Translations under genes and position numbers: made by a program | Notes under the pieces: model-generated | Seen by the model: the letters and a program-made list of their open reading frames with translations, nothing else | Told to the model about the DNA's origin: nothing | Databases searched by the model: none | From: a virus | DNA: 29,596 nt | IMG/VR virus record: IMGVR_UViG_3300044678_001279 | Span: 1 to 29,596 of that record | Reading direction: 5' to 3' (one strand) | Shown: piece by piece, positions 5,346-27,360 of the stretch | How the letters are laid out: every line of letters starts with the position of its first letter | How positions within the stretch are numbered: the stretch's first letter is position 1

Positions 5346-5641
5346 TGGCTTTTAATACAGTATTTAAGGGAACAACAAGTGGCAGTATTGCATCTATACC
5401 CTTGAACAATTCATGCGTGATAAAGTCGTTTATAATAACAAGCGTAGGCGTAGCACAGTTTACAGTTTATATTGCATCAAATGAAGATGGTTCAGCCGTT
5501 AGAATAACAGCAATTGATACGGCTCTTGCAGAGAAAGGTAAATTAGAAGTAAACTTAGATATAAAAGTAAACCCTAATCATGCCATTTTAATAGTTACGG
5601 ATGCGGAAATTGATTACTATTTTACAATATCAGCAGAATAA
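5345..5641 (+). CDS. Small beta-rich virion-associated protein, 98 aa
   Basis: Coupled to genes on both sides through TAATG junctions. The product is almost all short hydrophobic strands (SCVIKSFIITSVGVAQFTVYI, residues in the first half; HAILIVTDAEIDYYFTIS at the C-terminus) with few charged residues, which suggests a beta-sandwich. It has no signal peptide. Small proteins of this type sit between tail genes in many Bacteroidota phages, but I cannot name a function. A minor tail or decoration protein is the simplest reading. Confidence 0.6.
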   Translation: MAFNTVFKGTTSGSIASIPLNNSCVIKSFIITSVGVAQFTVYIASNEDGSAVRITAIDTALAEKGKLEVNLDIKVNPNHAILIVTDAEIDYYFTISAE

Positions 5642-20668: not shown

Positions 20669-23035
20669 ATGCAATATCAACAAATGAGTTCTGCGGCACA
20701 ACATCCTTATCCTAACCATGATATAGACCCTTCTAAGAAAGGCAAAGCTTGGTGTATGCAGTATGCGACAGCAGCCTATTATGATTGGCAGTTTGTCTAT
20801 CCTAAAGGAATATTTAGCGGTAACGGTGGAGATTATGCTAAGTTTAGGCTATACGCTTTAGGCAAGCAGCCAATTTCACAATACAAAAAGCACATGGGAG
20901 TTGATGAAACAACAAACAACACTCACCTTATTGTAGATTGGACTGTACGTGCTATTATTTCAGGTTATAGGGATAAGGCTATTTCCAGACTGATGAAACA
21001 AGACTACTCAATAGTTGCTACGCCAGTTGATATACTTGCAAAATCAGAAAACGAAAATTACTACGCACAATTAAAGTCAAAACTTGCTGTAAGGGAATTG
21101 ATGATGCAGCAAAATCCAGAGATGGCACAACATCCATTACTTGCTATGGGCAAGGGCGACCCAATGGATATTGAGGAATTGGAAATGAGAATGGAATTTG
21201 GCGAACAGTTTAACAGAAGCAAGGATGCGGAAATGGCTATATCACTTGCCTTTTATAACTGCGATTACAAAACAAAAAGAAGGCAGATATACGAAGACCT
21301 TTTTGACTTGGGTGTAAGTGGCGTTAAAGATTGGTTGAGTGATGATAACAAACCTATGTTTAGAGTAGTTGACCCTGAATGTGTAATAACTTCTTTTTCT
21401 AAAGACGGTGATTTTAATGACATTGTTCATGCAGGTGAAGTAATTGATGTTCCTCTTACAGAGTTGGCAACAGTAAAAGACGATGAAGGAAACTTAGTGT
21501 TTACCGAAAAGGAACTTACCGAATTTGCATCTACAATAGCAGGTCAATATGGTAATCCAAGATTATTAGGATTGGGTGCAGGGTTTATGAAGCCATACGA
21601 TAAATTCAAAGCAAAGGTTCTTGATATTGAGTTTTATACTTACGATGAAATTTCTTACAGAAGTGCTACTGATGAAGTAGGCAATACCGATTTTAGAAAA
21701 ATGGATTACGGTAGAGGTAAGACTTCACCAAAATACACAAGGAAAAAAATACAGTACGTTTATAAATGCAAGTGGATTATAGGTACTGAATATTGCTACG
21801 ATTTTGGAAAATGCTACGACCAAAAAAGAGGAAACGATGCGAGCAAAAAAGCTAAAACAAAATTATCGTATTCGTTCTTTGCCTACAACTTCTATCAGAT
21901 GAAGGCGCAAGGATTTATGGAAAGATTAGTGCCTTACATTGACGACTATCAACTAACAATGCTGAAAATACAGAACTTTAAAAACAGGGCTGTTCCTTCG
22001 GGTTGGTGGATAGACTTATCGGCATTGGAAAGAGTGGCAATGACTAAGGGCGGTGCAGACATGGAACCGAAAGAGTTGCTGCAAATGTTTATGGAAACAG
22101 GTGTACTTCTTGGAAGAAGCGATGAACTTGATGGAGGGCAACCACGTTCCCAAAATTGGAAACCTGTAATACCAATAGAAAACACAGCAGCAAGCGAACT
22201 GGCAATGTTCTATCAGGACTTAATTAACACCATAACGGCTATTGAAAAAATGACAGGGTATAATGATGCTACACTTGGGCAAGCATCTTCTAAAACCCTT
22301 GTTCCTGGATATGAAATGGCGCAACAAAGCACTAACGATGCGCTATACCCAATGGCTTTTGCAGAAGAAAATTTGACGCTAAGACTTGCAGAGGCTATGC
22401 TATGCAGAACGCAACAGGCACTAAGAAAAGGAGGCGTTTCAGGGCTTGCACCGGCAATTAATACTAATTCACTAACCTTTATAGAAATTGATTCATCTAT
22501 TGCATGGAGGGATTACGGTATTGAACTTGAAAAAAGAACAACAGACGACCAAAAAGCATGGTTGCTTAGTATGATGCAGATAGATATTCAAAACGGATAC
22601 TTAAATTCATCAGATGCCGTAACGCTTGTAAATACCCGAAATGCAAAACAAGCACAAATGATATGGGCGTACAAGGTAAAGAAAGAGAAAGAACGTATAT
22701 CCCAACAGAAAATGGCAGAAATTCAAGCCAACAATGAAGGGAATATGCAAGCTGCACAAGTCGCCCAACAAACAACTATGGGTATTAAGCAAATGGAGAT
22801 ACAGGCTGAATTGCAAAAAGAACAAATGCGAATTAACGGTGAATTAGAGAAAGAAAGGATGAGGGTTGAATCAGCAGAAAGAATAGCAATGGCATCCAAT
22901 ATGACTAAAATTCAAGTGGCAACAGATACAGGGGATGCTAAAGAAAGGTCAACTGATATTGCAGGAATACATAGTCAATTAAAGCAAGAAATAGCCAATC
23001 AGAAACCAACATCAAGTTCGCAAAATAAACAGTAG
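20669..23035 (+). CDS. Portal protein
   Basis: A 788-residue protein directly after TerL, behind an A-rich leader (AAAAAAAATAAAATAAG). The N-terminal region (about 40-130) and central parts (YRDKAISRLMKQDYSIVATP; KTKRRQIYEDLFDLGVSGVK; MFRVVDPECVITSF) match the clip and wing layout of phage portals. The segment around residues 515-565 (DLINTITAIEKMTGYNDATL) has the typical 'I..ItG......G.' portal helix. The C-terminus (about 670-788) is a long charged coiled coil with repeated Q/E/M/R residues (KEQMRINGELEKERMRVES), as in portals with a barrel extending into the capsid. It forms the dodecameric DNA gate and docks TerL and the ring proteins. Assignment rests on motif pattern, length and position between TerL and scaffold/capsid genes. 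Confidence 0.75.
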   Translation: MQYQQMSSAAQHPYPNHDIDPSKKGKAWCMQYATAAYYDWQFVYPKGIFSGNGGDYAKFRLYALGKQPISQYKKHMGVDETTNNTHLIVDWTVRAIISGYRDKAISRLMKQDYSIVATPVDILAKSENENYYAQLKSKLAVRELMMQQNPEMAQHPLLAMGKGDPMDIEELEMRMEFGEQFNRSKDAEMAISLAFYNCDYKTKRRQIYEDLFDLGVSGVKDWLSDDNKPMFRVVDPECVITSFSKDGDFNDIVHAGEVIDVPLTELATVKDDEGNLVFTEKELTEFASTIAGQYGNPRLLGLGAGFMKPYDKFKAKVLDIEFYTYDEISYRSATDEVGNTDFRKMDYGRGKTSPKYTRKKIQYVYKCKWIIGTEYCYDFGKCYDQKRGNDASKKAKTKLSYSFFAYNFYQMKAQGFMERLVPYIDDYQLTMLKIQNFKNRAVPSGWWIDLSALERVAMTKGGADMEPKELLQMFMETGVLLGRSDELDGGQPRSQNWKPVIPIENTAASELAMFYQDLINTITAIEKMTGYNDATLGQASSKTLVPGYEMAQQSTNDALYPMAFAEENLTLRLAEAMLCRTQQALRKGGVSGLAPAINTNSLTFIEIDSSIAWRDYGIELEKRTTDDQKAWLLSMMQIDIQNGYLNSSDAVTLVNTRNAKQAQMIWAYKVKKEKERISQQKMAEIQANNEGNMQAAQVAQQTTMGIKQMEIQAELQKEQMRINGELEKERMRVESAERIAMASNMTKIQVATDTGDAKERSTDIAGIHSQLKQEIANQKPTSSSQNKQ

Positions 23036-23046
23036 GTTACTATTTA

Positions 23047-23087
23047 AGTTAAATATTTTTTTTTAAGATAATGATATTGATATTTAC
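23047..23087 (+). promoter_or_regulatory. Promoter-like leader before the scaffold gene
   Basis: The 75-base gap after the portal gene holds AGTTAAATATTTTTTTTTAA followed by GATA and an AT-rich stretch. It is closely similar to 2843-2882 before the ring-protein genes (AGTTAAATA, T-tract, A, GATA). An exact TAnnTTTG is absent; GATATTTAC at 23079-23087 is the closest. It would be well placed to boost scaffold and capsid expression. Confidence 0.35.
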
Positions 23088-23106
23088 ATCACCAATTTAA
23101 AAATCA
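23088..23106 (+). repeat. Inverted-repeat element, left copy
   Basis: ATCACCAATTTAAAAATCA lies just before the scaffold gene start. Its near-perfect reverse complement (one A fewer) is at 26743-26760, just after the gene that follows the capsid gene. A shorter direct copy of the core ACCAATTTAAAA is at 25809-25820. All three are in intergenic gaps. Confidence 0.6.
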
Positions 23107-23110
23107 GTTT

Positions 23111-24352
23111 ATGACAGTAAGGAAATTTTATGATGCAGCAGTAGTAGATGAAGGAGCAGGAGGCACGGAAACGGCTGCGGTAGAACAACAACAAGCACCA
23201 AGCATAGCCGCTTTAATGGCTAAACACGGTGAGAATAACAACGGAAGCGAAATGGTTGCAAAACCAATTCAAATTGATAAAACAGGGGCAAAAATAGAAA
23301 CGGACAACAAAGTTGAAACTCCCGCTGCGACAGCGAAAGAAGAAACTAAAGGCGAGGAAACAAAAGTTACAACCCCTGTTGCTGATGAAGGAAATGGCGA
23401 AGTTATTAAAACTCAAAAAGAGAATCAACAGAAGCCTGTACAGAATTGGCAAGCCGCTTTAAAAGAGCAAAAACCCGATGCAGTTTTGAGAGCGTTAGGG
23501 TTCGATGATGAAAAGGTGTCTTTTGTAAATGAATTGAAAAGTCTTGACCCTAAAATGTTTGGACTTCTTAAAACATGGCAAGAGAAAGGAGATGTAAAGG
23601 AGTATTTAAAGGAACTATCAACTGATTACTCTAAAATGCCATCCGAAGAAGTGATGCGACATCAGCTTCGAAAAGAGTATCCAAAGGCAAGTGATAGCCA
23701 ATTAGAAGTTCTTTACAGAAAGGAAATTGCAGAAAAGTACAATCTGGATTCTATTGACGATGATGAAAAAGAAGAAGGTATGATTCTTCTTGACGCAAAG
23801 GCAGAGAAATACAGAGATGAACTAATCGCAAATCAAGAAAAATTCCTTATTCCTTCACCACCTGAAAAGACCGCAGAATCAACGGTTGACCCCGACTTGG
23901 AAGCAAGACGGGTAGCAGTAGAAAGAGTAACAGAGCAGTTCCATAACGACCCATACACTAAAGAAGTACTTTCAAAGAATGTTATTTCGATAGGGGAAGG
24001 GGAAGATAAGTTTAGTTTCCCTGTTAATGGGGAAGAATTGGCAAGCCTTGTAATGAATGGCGATGAAACAGGGGAGTTGATGTTTGATAAACAAGTTAAT
24101 TCGGAAGGAAACGAAGTATTAATTCCTAAATCAAAACATCAAATTCTTGTAGCAGCAGTCAATAAGTATGGGGAAAAGCTAATAACGGAACTTGCAAAAC
24201 ACTACAAGTCAATAGGCGGTAAATCAGCAATCGAACCAATAGATAACGCAAAGCCTACAAATACCAATAATACATCTACTGCCGAACAAGAGCCAAAAAC
24301 TCCCGCAGAATGGATGGCAAAAAAAGGGTACTTAAATTCAGGCGGTCAATAA
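23111..24352 (+). CDS. Capsid scaffold-like protein
   Basis: A 413-residue acidic, low-complexity and coiled-coil-rich protein between portal and major capsid genes, the classic position for a scaffold. The first 110 residues are rich in A, E, K, T and Q and probably disordered. The rest is charged helix (EEVMRHQLRKEYPKASDSQL; EVLYRKEIAEKYNL), and the C-terminus (EWMAKKGYLNSGGQ) is short and could dock the capsid shell. No protease motif was seen, so whether it is cleaved or released intact is unknown. It is predicted to guide capsid assembly and be absent from the mature virion. Confidence 0.6.
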   Translation: MTVRKFYDAAVVDEGAGGTETAAVEQQQAPSIAALMAKHGENNNGSEMVAKPIQIDKTGAKIETDNKVETPAATAKEETKGEETKVTTPVADEGNGEVIKTQKENQQKPVQNWQAALKEQKPDAVLRALGFDDEKVSFVNELKSLDPKMFGLLKTWQEKGDVKEYLKELSTDYSKMPSEEVMRHQLRKEYPKASDSQLEVLYRKEIAEKYNLDSIDDDEKEEGMILLDAKAEKYRDELIANQEKFLIPSPPEKTAESTVDPDLEARRVAVERVTEQFHNDPYTKEVLSKNVISIGEGEDKFSFPVNGEELASLVMNGDETGELMFDKQVNSEGNEVLIPKSKHQILVAAVNKYGEKLITELAKHYKSIGGKSAIEPIDNAKPTNTNNTSTAEQEPKTPAEWMAKKGYLNSGGQ

Positions 24353-24408
24353 ACTGTAAAGGGTTGTAACGATAAACAATATTTTTAAAATCTTACAATC
24401 TTATAACA
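24353..24408 (+). promoter_or_regulatory. Leader of the major capsid gene
   Basis: A 56-base AT-rich gap with two adjacent AATCTTA copies (24389-24404: AATCTTACAATCTTAT) ending just before the capsid ATG. No Shine-Dalgarno sequence is evident. TATTTTTA at 24380-24387 is one base from the Bacteroidota -7 consensus, but the only TTG upstream is too close (13 bases), so a promoter is not claimed with confidence. Confidence 0.3.
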
Positions 24409-25764
24409 ATGCCAGTAACACAAAACACAGTAATCAAATCATTCGTATCTGCGATTGATTTCTTAGACCAAAGGGATATAGACCCTAATATCTATGACCA
24501 ATCAAGGGACAGGGCGTTTACCGATATTATGAAAATCGTAAACCGTACCAAGCCCGCCACAATGTTCAGCTACCATAACTTCGTTAATGCGGATGTTTAT
24601 GAAGTAGGAACAATTAGTGCAGTATCTACTACTGGATTAGCACAAATCCAATTCACAATCAACACGGCTAACACATTTCCAAGAGTTGGTGATTTGATTA
24701 AAACAAACAACGTAAACAACGTAGGAAAGCAAGCACGTATCCAAGCCGTAACATTCGGTTCAGGAACAGCAGTAATTACTGCACGCAGCGTAGGTGGTAA
24801 CGCATCTGCTTTCTTTGCAACCGTAGGCGATAAAGTACAGTTTGGTTCAAACGCGTATGCTGAAAAATCAACTGCTCCAATTAACCGTAGGTATGACCTT
24901 GTTAAATACTACAACTTAATTCAAACATTCCGTGAAGTAGATGAAATTTCCGACATTCAAAAAGTAGCTAAAATTGAAGTGAATGTAGGTGGCGATTATC
25001 ATATCCTGCCTTACCAAACAGTTCAAAAAGTTATTAAATTGAATGGTGATATTTCAGTACAAATGCTTTGTGGTACGCAATCAAGTACATTGTACAATGA
25101 TGCTGCTCCATTTTTAGCAGATGCTACAAGCGGATTACCAATTCAAACATCAGGTGGACTTGATTGGTATTGCACTACCTATGGTATTTCTGATAGCGTA
25201 GCAAGTCTTGGCACATTTGGATTTACAGACCTTGACGAAATCATTGACAATTTCATTGCAAACAAAGCTCCAACTGATATGATGGTATTCATGGGTAGCC
25301 GTGCATATCGTATTATCAGCAAGTTCTTGAAGCAACTTGGTTCTGCAAGTGTGGATTCACGTAGGTTAAGTGTTGACGGAAAATCATTTGATTTTAATGT
25401 TGAACATTTAAGTTATGGTGGATACGAATTTGACTTTGTTCACGTTCCTATCTTTGACCATCCGCAGTTGTTTAGCGCAACACTTGTTGCTGATGTAAAC
25501 GGTTCTGCATACTTTGTTCCAAAAGACCAAGTTGATACCGTTGATAATGGTCGCCAACCACGTATCCAAATCCGTTACACAGCAACTCCCTTCACAGGAA
25601 GTTCTGCAAACAAATCTTCTAACGGAATGGTTACAGAGTGGAGGACAGGTGCGCTTGCAGAAATCCCAACCGATAGCACAATGCAGTTGCATACTGACTG
25701 GCAGACTGCACAAGGTTTGGAGTGTCTTGCAGTTAAGCACTTCCAAAAGTATCGTATAGCATAG
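24409..25764 (+). CDS. Major capsid protein (HK97 fold)
   Basis: A 451-residue protein after the scaffold gene. The order of elements fits the HK97 fold: a helical N-arm (QSRDRAFTDIMKIVNRTKPA), a beta-rich domain with a glycine-rich turn (SVGGNASAFFATVGDKVQFG), a long spine-type helix region (YYNLIQTFREVDEISDIQKV), the A-domain segment (DLDEIIDNFIANKAPTDMMV, then FMGSRAYRIISKFLKQLG) and a C-terminal strand-rich part (FDFVHVPIFDHP). It would form the icosahedral shell in many copies. Codon use supports very high expression: 12 of 19 arginines are CGN, against 4 of 33 in TerL. A strong terminator follows eight bases after the stop. Confidence 0.75.
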   Translation: MPVTQNTVIKSFVSAIDFLDQRDIDPNIYDQSRDRAFTDIMKIVNRTKPATMFSYHNFVNADVYEVGTISAVSTTGLAQIQFTINTANTFPRVGDLIKTNNVNNVGKQARIQAVTFGSGTAVITARSVGGNASAFFATVGDKVQFGSNAYAEKSTAPINRRYDLVKYYNLIQTFREVDEISDIQKVAKIEVNVGGDYHILPYQTVQKVIKLNGDISVQMLCGTQSSTLYNDAAPFLADATSGLPIQTSGGLDWYCTTYGISDSVASLGTFGFTDLDEIIDNFIANKAPTDMMVFMGSRAYRIISKFLKQLGSASVDSRRLSVDGKSFDFNVEHLSYGGYEFDFVHVPIFDHPQLFSATLVADVNGSAYFVPKDQVDTVDNGRQPRIQIRYTATPFTGSSANKSSNGMVTEWRTGALAEIPTDSTMQLHTDWQTAQGLECLAVKHFQKYRIA

Positions 25765-25771
25765 TTTTTAA

Positions 25772-25805
25772 AAGGTAGGGAGGCTGGACTTCCCTACCTT
25801 CTTTT
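25772..25805 (+). terminator. Intrinsic terminator after the capsid gene
   Basis: Perfect 10-bp stem AAGGTAGGGA (25772-25781) / TCCCTACCTT (25791-25800), extended by a G-T and a G-C pair to leave a five-base loop CTGGA, followed by CTTTTAT. This is a strong Rho-independent terminator and lies immediately after the capsid stop codon. Confidence 0.8.
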
Positions 25806-25808
25806 ATA

Positions 25809-25820
25809 ACCAATTTAAAA
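25809..25820 (+). repeat. ACCAATTTAAAA core copy
   Basis: A 12-base direct copy of the core of the element at 23088-23106, between the terminator and the next gene. It merges with the A-rich leader ending in AAATAAAATG at 25830. Confidence 0.5.
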
Positions 25821-25829
25821 TTAAATAAA

Positions 25830-26738
25830 ATGTCGTTAGAAAATTTTGCACAATTCAATGACTTGTCGCCTAAATTAAGACAAGAATTAGAAGACAAAGT
25901 AGCAGGTTTTGGAAAGACGGTTCGCTATAAATTTGATATAGTAAAGCCAAACCCAGACCCAACAAAGTACAATGGAGAATTTGTTTATCCTAATATGTAC
26001 ACGCTTGACCCTACAAAATTTACCATACAAGACCCGTATGAAGATAGAGCAGGAAAAAGCAAATCAAAGAATATTGCTCTTGTAAACGATGCTTTTTTGA
26101 ATGACAGAGGAATACCTGAAAGATTCATAAAAGTAAAAGTTTTATCAGTAGATAAAGGTATTTTGAAACTAAATGTTTCAGAAAAAACGGAAGATAAATA
26201 TGTAGCAATGTTTCTTGAATTACATCCTAAATTAACCAACGGTAAGTTTGCAGACAAAAACGCCTACCAAGTAATAAAAAGGATTGATGAAAAGGTGGCT
26301 GCAAATACAGAAAGAACAGAGAGAACTGCAAAAGTGAAAGCGTTAAATATAGCACTTGGCATGAGTGATGAAGAACTTGTAAATTTTGCTGATGCTATGG
26401 GATGGGATAGTACAGAGGATGCAGAAATCATAAGAAACCAAGCAGAGAATTTAGCAGAAAACGAACCTGTTTATTTCAATGATATGGTTGGTGGTAAGAC
26501 AATGGAGTATTTATCAGTAATTAAACAAGCGACAGATAGAGGTTTAATATCTTTCAACCCAGCAGAATACAAATACATTTGGGAAGGTAATAAGCAAGCA
26601 ATAGCCGTTCTTTCTCCTACTGGCGAAAAAGCAGAAAATGAGAAACTTGCAGAGTGGTTTCAGGTAGGAGGGGATAAGGCAGATAAAGTATTTAAGAAAT
26701 TAAAGTCATTATTGAAAGGGGAAAAAGAACCCGCTTAA
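25830..26738 (+). CDS. Unrecognised virion-block protein after the capsid gene, 302 aa
   Basis: Starts behind AATTAAATAAAATG. The N-terminal half is beta-type with a proline-, asparagine- and tyrosine-rich segment (KPNPDPTKYNGEFVYPNMY) and a strand pair (FIKVKVLSVDKGILKLNVS, about residues 99-117). The C-terminal half is helical and acidic (SDEELVNFADAMGWDSTEDA; KADKVFKKLKSLLKGEKEPA). No membrane segment or enzyme motif is seen. Proteins in this place often decorate or cement capsids or help assembly, but I recognise no family. The terminator ahead and hairpins after make it an almost isolated unit; read-through or a promoter not visible to me must supply its mRNA. Confidence 0.55.
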   Translation: MSLENFAQFNDLSPKLRQELEDKVAGFGKTVRYKFDIVKPNPDPTKYNGEFVYPNMYTLDPTKFTIQDPYEDRAGKSKSKNIALVNDAFLNDRGIPERFIKVKVLSVDKGILKLNVSEKTEDKYVAMFLELHPKLTNGKFADKNAYQVIKRIDEKVAANTERTERTAKVKALNIALGMSDEELVNFADAMGWDSTEDAEIIRNQAENLAENEPVYFNDMVGGKTMEYLSVIKQATDRGLISFNPAEYKYIWEGNKQAIAVLSPTGEKAENEKLAEWFQVGGDKADKVFKKLKSLLKGEKEPA

Positions 26739-26742
26739 CTTT

Positions 26743-26760
26743 TGATTTTAAATTGGTGAT
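26743..26760 (-). repeat. Inverted-repeat element, right copy
   Basis: Read on the minus strand this is ATCACCAATTTAAAATCA, the same as 23088-23106 except for one missing A. It lies five bases after the stop of the preceding gene, in opposite orientation to the left copy. Confidence 0.6.
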
Positions 26761-26774
26761 TAGCCGAAAGGCTA
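26761..26774 (+). other. GNRA-tetraloop hairpin
   Basis: TAGCC (26761-26765), GAAA, GGCTA (26770-26774): a perfect five-bp stem closed by a GAAA tetraloop, not followed by a T-tract. It lies directly after the right inverted-repeat copy. It may be a processing or stability element; a terminator role on its own is unlikely. Confidence 0.5.
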
Positions 26775-26778
26775 TGAC

Positions 26779-26815
26779 GGCAAGTTGGATACATTCGTAT
26801 TACTGCCCTTTATTT
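26779..26815 (+). terminator. Terminator-like hairpin with interrupted stem
   Basis: GGCA-A-GT (26779-26785) pairs with ACTGCC (26802-26807) with one bulge; the stem resumes as ATAC/GTAT around loop ATTC, and CTTTATTTTT follows. This is a plausible weak intrinsic terminator. It makes the TTG at 26785 an unlikely start for the next gene. Confidence 0.45.
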
Positions 26816-26829
26816 TTAAAACAAATAAA

Positions 26830-27360
26830 ATGCCATTAGTTCCAAATTTCACAGCATCGCAAGTTCCAGGGAATCCGTCAAATGTAACTTTTACAGACGT
26901 AAGTACTGGCTCTGATGTTGCTATTACACAAAGACGAGTTTATATACAAGACGCTTTTGGTGTTTTTTTAGTGGAAGAAGGAACTACTACCGAATATGAA
27001 CAATGGGCTATTGGTGATACGTCAATAGCCCTTGATTTGTTTAGTAAAGATTATGCCGTTCAAGTTGTAGTGCAATGGCTTAATGTTTCCAATGTTGTAC
27101 TTTATTCAAAGACGCTTGTATTTTCATTCACGCAATACAATGAAAACTTTGACTATCAACTTACAACATTGATGGCATCTAACCCGAAACTGATTGAGGA
27201 CAATTCATTTTATTCCAATAAGTCAAAATTGAGGGTGTTTCTTGATGGGGGCGACTTAGCAGTATCAAATGTAGGAGATATTTACGCAGCACAACTTTGT
27301 TACGACCAAGCAACATTATTAAGGTTAAGTTCCCAATACTATTTTAATGCCAACAGTTAA
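26830..27360 (+). CDS. Virion structural protein with Ig-like N-terminus, 176 aa
   Basis: The start is placed at the ATG at 26830, preceded by AAAACAAATAAAATG as in other genes here, not at an upstream in-frame TTG inside a hairpin. The N-terminus (PNFTASQVPGNPSNVTFTDV, then STGSDVAITQRRVYI) has the look of a PKD or Ig-like beta-sandwich; the C-terminus is helical (GDIYAAQLCYDQATLLRL). Proteins with this plan occur with tail or capsid-surface genes in Bacteroidota phages. The exact role is unknown. It overlaps the next gene by 14 bases. Confidence 0.55.
   Translation: MPLVPNFTASQVPGNPSNVTFTDVSTGSDVAITQRRVYIQDAFGVFLVEEGTTTEYEQWAIGDTSIALDLFSKDYAVQVVVQWLNVSNVVLYSKTLVFSFTQYNENFDYQLTTLMASNPKLIEDNSFYSNKSKLRVFLDGGDLAVSNVGDIYAAQLCYDQATLLRLSSQYYFNANS

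Follow-up and report, generated by a model that had tools for sequence, protein, structure and literature searches.

Predicted RNA pairing between the leader and the 3' flank of the gene after the capsid gene in crAss-like phages

In the virus record IMGVR_UViG_3300044678_001279 of IMG/VR (29,596 nucleotides, here called the window), which stems from a crAss-like phage, an inverted repeat had been noticed around the genes for scaffold and capsid. We analyzed this 29.6-kb stretch together with the corresponding loci of related phages and found that the inverted repeat is real and more than a chance likeness. It is best read as covarying RNA pairing of the gene that follows the major capsid protein gene (here named g3; positions 25830 to 26738, plus strand, 302 amino acids), with the leader of the scaffold-position gene as second partner, that is, a variant of the known pairing between 5' and 3' untranslated regions (UTRs) and not a mobile element. 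A strand of the g3 leader (ACCAATTTAAAATTAAA, 25809 to 25825, plus strand), whose 3' end lies 4 nt upstream of the g3 ATG, and a strand directly 3' of the g3 stop codon (26741 to 26757, plus strand; here named T) form 17 contiguous pairs, one of them G-U, and the g3 open reading frame (ORF) lies inside the loop closed by this helix. With a probability of roughly 0.6, T would act as a 3'-UTR element: by pairing with the g3 leader and with that of the scaffold-position gene it would shut down translation of both genes while sparing the capsid gene. Sequence comparison strongly supports the pairing, and repression of translation is what we infer.

The three copies of the motif were confirmed where they had been placed. 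The copy ATCACCAATTTAAAAATCA at 23088 to 23106 (plus strand) is located 5 nt upstream of the start codon of the scaffold-position gene, the core ACCAATTTAAAA at 25809 to 25820 just upstream of the g3 start, and the inverted copy at 26743 to 26760 right after the g3 stop; the reverse complement of the latter, ATCACCAATTTAAAATCA, is one A shorter than ATCACCAATTTAAAAATCA. As originally predicted, the outer pair encloses exactly three genes on the plus strand: the scaffold-position ORF (23111 to 24352), the major capsid protein gene (24409 to 25764; Pfam SU10_MCP, 2e-11) and g3. With up to three mismatches the 19-mer occurs at four sites, one of which (25134 to 25152) falls within the capsid gene, and four or more sites were reached in 0 of 100 shuffles (shuffle mean, 0.06). 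Copies elsewhere in the record are thus few rather than scattered. The 12-mer CACCAATTTAAA has two exact occurrences and, with two mismatches, is at chance level in the window (7 found versus 9.4 expected). The outer pair was visible at first inspection because T, which is complementary to both leaders, pairs about equally with them in the window (-19.5 kcal/mol with the scaffold leader versus -19.7 kcal/mol with the g3 leader). The tighter and more general pair is that of the g3 leader and the g3 3' element, with the scaffold leader as a weaker second partner.

Scans with the capsid and g3 proteins yielded 43 distinct contigs including the window, and the 27 that are readable on both sides of g3 were used; tests on 17 or 23 phages predate the later contigs. 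Left out were contigs that end before the far side of g3 (L006, L008, L012, L013, L027, L030, L033, L035, L036, L037, L039, and L121), among them L030, where a stop codon interrupts the frame roughly halfway through g3 and the contig ends 8 nt farther on, and contigs that end within the capsid gene (L149, L154, L170, and L173). The order portal, scaffold, capsid, g3 is kept in all loci annotated for it (only capsid and g3 were placed in L146, L147, L157, and L171), and g3 occupies the same place in all 27 phages, with small extra genes occurring in some loci between capsid and g3 or 3' of g3. For contiguous pairs, the post-stop window was 40 nt in 25 phages and 100 nt in L147 and L040, set after the complements of these two had been seen. 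A second test used 19 representatives, one per cluster of 65% g3 identity, and post-stop windows of 34 and 100 nt, the latter likewise chosen with the complements in view.

A complement of 9 to 23 contiguous pairs between leader and T is present in all 27 phages, the 23 pairs being those of L038. Its letters differ widely, as seen in the window (ACCAATTTAAAATTAAA with TTTGATTTTAAATTGGT), L028 (ATCAATCAATCA with TGATTGATTGAT) and L032 (TCAACAATCAAAAAA with TTTTTTGATTGTTGA); in L146, the pairing of ATCAACTTTTATG with CATAAAGGTTGAT spans the start codon. The arrangement is therefore kept in relatives, as the original prediction had proposed to check, and what is conserved is the complementarity and not the literal motif. 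In 22 of the 27 phages the leader strand stops short of the start codon by 0 to 15 nt; in the other five it extends into the codon. Counted from the last base of the stop codon, the first position of T ranges from -8 to +23, and only in L147 does it lie farther out, at +74. Own leaders and T strands form 13.1 Watson-Crick pairs versus 8.4 when partners are swapped among the 27 phages (0/50,000 permutations), and 12.95 versus 7.63 among the 19 representatives (0/50,000), in 15 of which the own T is strictly the best partner.

Duplex energies agree with these counts. Own pairs reach -20.1 versus -14.7 kcal/mol for swapped ones (0/50,000 permutations, 23 phages), the own duplex lies within the best 1.5% of shuffles in 21/23 phages, and the own T beats that of the nearest relative in 18/23. 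Among 899 genes on 17 contigs, a shuffle-based z below -3.2 was found for 14 of 17 g3 genes and for 23 of 882 other genes; this measure was used instead of the energy rank, by which g3 comes first within its contig in only 10/17, because strong hairpins add energy to other genes. The pairing of transcript ends that had been suggested for prediction was run as well: unguided minimum-energy folds of about 1 kb around g3 join both ends, with at least seven leader-T pairs, in 20/23 phages, whereas the same test gave the helix in 2/23 scaffold and 0/23 capsid genes. Leaders and post-stop regions of the neighboring genes showed no gain for own partners (scaffold, -9.7 own versus -8.7 swapped; capsid, -6.0 versus -6.5; portal, -7.1 versus -7.2). 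Differences between the arms, counted as distinct contexts, comprise 10 G-U-compatible versus 2 other transitions (P = 0.019 against an even split, with relatedness only partly removed); counting every phage gives 15 G-U-compatible changes, 2 other transitions and 22 transversions. Since complementarity is kept while the letters are free, these data point to RNA-RNA pairing. Four contigs (L146, L147, L157, and L171) were found after the pairing pattern had been written down and served as a later test set, in which L146 and L157 passed the fixed-window energy test.

Several observations weigh against this reading. L147 failed the fixed-window energy test (39% of shuffles), as its complement, 13 pairs with one G-U, lies outside that window, 74 nt 3' of the stop; L171 was weak in energy (41% of shuffles), its 9-pair helix being at 2%. 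The energies of L040 (12%) and L120 (7.5%, with an interrupted helix) are within the shuffle range, and the contiguous helix of L015 was equalled by 6% of shuffles. The own T is the (joint) best partner in only 15 of the 27 phages, because close relatives share T, and the T of the nearest relative pairs equally or better in 5/23 (L003, L007, L010, L011, and L116). Minimum-energy folds of L007, L014, and L034 lack the helix, transversions (18 distinct contexts) exceed G-U-compatible changes (10), and the best match of T's complement lies at neither the g3 nor the scaffold leader in 4/17 contigs (L003, L014, L029, and L040, where the query missed T). In addition, three named crAss-like phages have the gene order without the pairing. 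The gene after the capsid-position gene, as g3 is here, is gp33 in crAss001 (the positional equivalent of g3), gp101 in Cellulophaga phage phi14:2, and PJPA_028 in ProJPt-Bp1; in all three the next gene abuts it and leaves no 3'-UTR module, and leader and post-stop region reach -8.9 to -10.5 kcal/mol with no helix seen (energies without shuffle comparison). Like the phages studied here, crAss001 and phi14:2 show a hairpin 3' of the capsid gene. The pairing is therefore not needed for crAss-like assembly in general.

We also compared T with the other leaders of the cluster. The scaffold leader pairs with its own T at -17.4 versus -13.0 kcal/mol for swapped T (0/20,000 permutations, 23 phages), whereas the capsid leader shows no match (-8.8 versus -8.7; 7,332/20,000, 23 phages). 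A z below -3 was obtained for 19/23 g3, 10/23 scaffold and 1/23 capsid leaders, and, outside T itself, the site in the contig that best fits T's complement is the g3 leader in 10/17 and the scaffold leader in 3/17. The idea that the 5' and 3' ends of the capsid mRNA pair thus holds for the pairing of ends, which is strongly supported, while the unit bracketed is primarily g3 and not the capsid mRNA. In a close clade, the gene before the large terminase gene also has a leader that matches T (z of -2.5 or lower in 8/15), but own T was not clearly better than swapped T (1,354/20,000; 15 of the 17 contigs), and this leader was rejected as a full third partner across the set. The hexamer AACCAA is enriched in leaders (34/330 versus 3 for its reverse complement and 9.5 in shuffles); a general late leader or promoter motif was nevertheless rejected as the explanation, given that in 10/17 contigs T's complement matched the g3 leader best.

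Hairpins accompany the two strands. The first (hp0; 25772 to 25800, plus strand), terminator-like with a T-rich tail, lies between the capsid stop and the g3 leader and was present in all folded phages but L038 (22/23) and, judged by eye, in three of the later four contigs; a terminator scan called it, but found 3 sites versus 3.0 in shuffles. In L146, a tRNA-Met gene (5429 to 5500 of that contig) lies between capsid and g3 in place of hp0, and this replacement suggests that hp0 marks a site of RNA processing or a 3' end. The second hairpin (hp1; 26761 to 26774, plus strand; TAGCC-GAAA-GGCTA), 3' of T, carries a GNRA-type loop recognized by eye in eight phages (the window, L009 to L011, L029, L031, L034, and L122) and has no counterpart in some close relatives.

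The third hairpin (hp2; 26779 to 26807, plus strand), derived from RNAalifold and pair counts, has a 2-nt UG bulge and a C(NUUN)G apex and covaries. Bulge, a G-U pair and the tip are nearly invariant, and adjacent pairs change on both sides. Across 16 sequences, 97.7% of cells are paired and five of eight pairs change on both sides, one of them occurring as CG (6), GC (5), AU (2), UA (2), and GU (1). In none of 500 shuffles was the observed level equalled for the percentage paired, for cells with two-sided changes or for the covariation score; the number of pairs with double changes (60/500) and of pair types (154/500) was not exceptional. A model of hp2 gave 18 matches at an E value of 2.3e-5 or better, one per phage and each 3' of g3, of which 16 belong to the set used to build it and two (L005 and L011) are near copies. 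No second strong copy was found in the contigs searched, with eight weaker matches at E values of at least 0.28. L040 and L115 to L118 gave no strong match, a different hairpin occupying the place in L115 to L118, and the scan covered the phages other than L146, L147, L157, and L171. A run of at least four T follows hp2 in the 18 phages that have it (by eye), and the terminator scan did not call hp2. The window region 22900 to 27000 had no Rfam match up to an E value of 2. Bacteroidota promoters have the form TTG / TAnnTTTG. Such a promoter was considered for hp2 and rejected, as its TAnnTTTG-like letters change with compensation in the stem and the distance to an upstream TTG varies (by eye).

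In the proposed mechanism, T, which comprises about 20 nt directly 3' of the g3 stop, would be antisense to the leader, whose end lies a few nucleotides upstream of the g3 start, and, as comparison and folding suggest, both would form an mRNA helix of 9 to 23 bp that closes the reading frame into a loop. Initiation in Bacteroidota uses an unstructured, A-rich leader region; since the helix covers this region, it should block initiation. T mostly begins at the stop codon or directly behind it, so that a ribosome terminating on g3 would cover T, and one that initiates would cover the leader; ongoing translation and the helix should therefore be mutually exclusive. Fresh, busy mRNA would stay open, and idle full-length mRNA would close. 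T matches the scaffold but not the capsid leader, which suggests unequal control within one assembly cluster, and late in infection T would reduce scaffold and g3 in comparison with capsid, either in cis or as a 3'-UTR RNA that is released and has hp1 and hp2 at its end. As a bolder and tentative extension, which we regard as doubtful, T, hp1 and hp2 might constitute a built-in RNA governor. It would pair, both in cis and in trans, with the leaders of scaffold and g3 (in one clade also with the terminase-side leader) but not with the capsid leader, so that assembly helpers are lowered relative to capsid once their mRNAs are complete, and hp2 would be the receptor of a protein, from phage or host, by which the switch is set.

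Other explanations differ in how far they account for these patterns. T, hp1 and hp2 might be released together as a small RNA derived from the 3'-UTR, with the scaffold and g3 leaders (and, in the close clade, that of the gene before the large terminase) as its targets in trans; this reading is possible, if doubtful. It would fit the matches of T to several leaders, the T runs after hp2 in 18 phages and the known cases OppZ and CarZ, as far as described in the consulted part of PMC7398697, but the best and most general partner of T is g3's own leader, the terminase-side leader fits in only 8/15 with weak separation of own from swapped T (1,354/20,000), and hp2 was missed by the terminator scan. 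Rather unlikely, in our view, is a helix that serves purely for processing or stability, in which the two strands together with hp0 and hp1/hp2 delimit a g3 mRNA that is cut by RNase III or another nuclease, or protected at its ends, without direct control of initiation. Hairpins do flank the g3 unit on both sides in most phages, the tRNA-Met in the place of hp0 in L146 would also be excised from the transcript, and the pairing in icaR mRNA creates an RNase III substrate according to the part of PMC3868564 considered here. Such a device would leave unexplained why the scaffold leader matches T and why the leader strand sits 0 to 15 nt before the start codon (22/27) or runs into it (5/27), and L038 lacks hp0.

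The original prediction had also named the remains of a mobile or recombination unit and binding sites for a regulator. That the repeat acts as DNA, either as the ends of a mobile or invertible unit or as a pair of operators for a DNA-binding regulator, would agree with its position at gene borders but is very unlikely. A search of both strands of 13 contigs with g3 gave forward matches only and none inverted (later g3 scans kept forward matches only, so that the evidence on orientation is that of the 13 contigs). The constant place of g3 in 27 phages, the bias of transitions toward G-U-compatible ones and the compensatory changes of the adjacent hp2, typical of RNA, likewise give no support to a mobile unit, and regulator sites are made less likely by arms that are rewritten between phages yet stay complementary. 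That a chance likeness of A-rich leaders and one inverted copy explains the repeat is hardly credible: the chance frequency of the 12-mer core with two mismatches and the self-complementarity of AATTTAAATT would allow for it, but the permutation and shuffle tests and the conservation with changed letters refute it. Pairing of T with the g3 and scaffold leaders thus remains the preferred explanation.

The phage and its genes were characterized further. Membership among crAss-like phages is indicated by matches to phrog_6547 (portal) and phrog_6681 (terminase), which we take to be crAss-type PHROGs, and to the Pfam family crAss_MUZ_C (muzzle); comparison of the capsid protein and g3 with a phage collection by tblastn gave no match and no named Crassvirales family. 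The scaffold-position gene is conserved between the portal and capsid genes, had no match in family searches, and owes its label to its position. The g3 protein had no Pfam or PHROG match at 0.001, an NCBIfam match at 0.048 only, far below the cutoff, and nothing below 0.3 in a sequence comparison with solved structures; weak PHROG matches, the best at 4e-5 to a family of unknown function, were seen in 3/15 members. A first structure model was poor (pLDDT, 63.6). The AlphaFold model of the L028 protein (pLDDT, 85) matched crAss-like phage proteins in BFVD and, by Foldseek, uncharacterized proteins of Tenacibaculum phage Gundel_1, phi14:2, ProJPt-Bp1 and crAss-like viruses; the matches in phi14:2 and ProJPt-Bp1 fit gp101 and PJPA_028 by length (294 and 234 amino acids), from which their identity is deduced. 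Against folds in the Protein Data Bank (PDB), the model gave nothing at an E value of 0.001, and its similarity to the RecA C-terminal region (Z of 7.7 over 64 residues) is in a range that the tool calls common. The word gp33 was not seen in the accessible part of the main text of the crAss001 structure paper, and the proteomics-based annotation of structural proteins in phi14:2 does not include gp101; g3 may therefore not be a stable part of the virion.

Some further observations were made along the way. The leader and post-stop region of the gene at 2205 to 2852 of the window are likewise complementary to a degree that exceeds shuffles (z, -5.3). An imperfect direct repeat of 40 nt (75%) at 2842 to 2881 and 23046 to 23085, upstream of the genes at 2900 and 23111, has ATATTT-type ends, as does the stretch upstream of the scaffold gene in relatives; it may represent a late promoter common to both genes. 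A separate hairpin (GGTTGTAA ... TTACAAT) seems to be present in the capsid leader, seen by eye at 24361 to 24399 of the window and in most of L028 to L038 but not in L004 to L013. L004, L005, L007, L009, L011, and L014 have one or more small genes inserted between capsid and g3 and a GGGGAAG...CTTCCCC-type hairpin after the capsid gene and again before the g3 leader, so that the extra genes resemble cassettes with a repeated hairpin. Short contigs with the capsid region were binned into cellular metagenome-assembled genomes (L120, titled Thaumarchaeota; L121, Bacteroidota; L122, Bacteroidia), and the archaeal label of L120 looks like mis-binning.

No report of such pairing in crAss-like phages was found in a limited search of open-licence papers, and post-transcriptional control of capsid assembly in these phages now becomes directly testable. 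Where hosts make little use of Shine-Dalgarno sequences, the case shows how pairing could control genes. Among known systems, the hok mRNA of plasmid R1 folds its 3' end back on the 5' initiation region, which silences the full-length mRNA, as summarized in the part of PMC3868564 considered here. Unlike hok, g3 encodes a 302-amino-acid phage protein and not a small toxin, and its mRNA is not known to be trimmed at the 3' end. OppZ and CarZ are autoregulatory small RNAs derived from 3'-UTRs that inhibit translation of their own transcript by base-pairing (PMC7398697, consulted part). Similarly, a 3'-UTR segment here would pair with leaders (g3 and scaffold) of its own gene cluster, a shared transcript being an assumption; OppZ and CarZ are released short RNAs, whereas the element described here is predicted, and roles of Hfq and RNase E are not to be assumed for it.

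The nearest mechanism is that of the icaR mRNA of Staphylococcus aureus, in which the 3'-UTR pairs with its own initiation region and a block of initiation has been shown (PMC3868564, same part); in our phages this block is a prediction. The likeness, a complementarity between 3'-UTR and initiation region in one mRNA, extends to 27/27 phages, with weak energies in L040, L120, L147, and L171. In icaR, a UCCCCUG motif pairs with the Shine-Dalgarno sequence, whereas in most of our phages a U-rich T with UUGG pairs with an A-rich leader; pairing of the icaR type (UCCCC with Shine-Dalgarno) was tested for in these phages and not found. The element also differs from icaR in its phage setting, in letters that covary across a lineage and in the scaffold leader as second partner. 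Bacterial pairing between 5'- and 3'-UTRs rests on few examples, as stated in that part of PMC3868564, and the phages described here offer 27 natural versions, rewritten in their letters yet complementary, at a fixed place beside the capsid gene.

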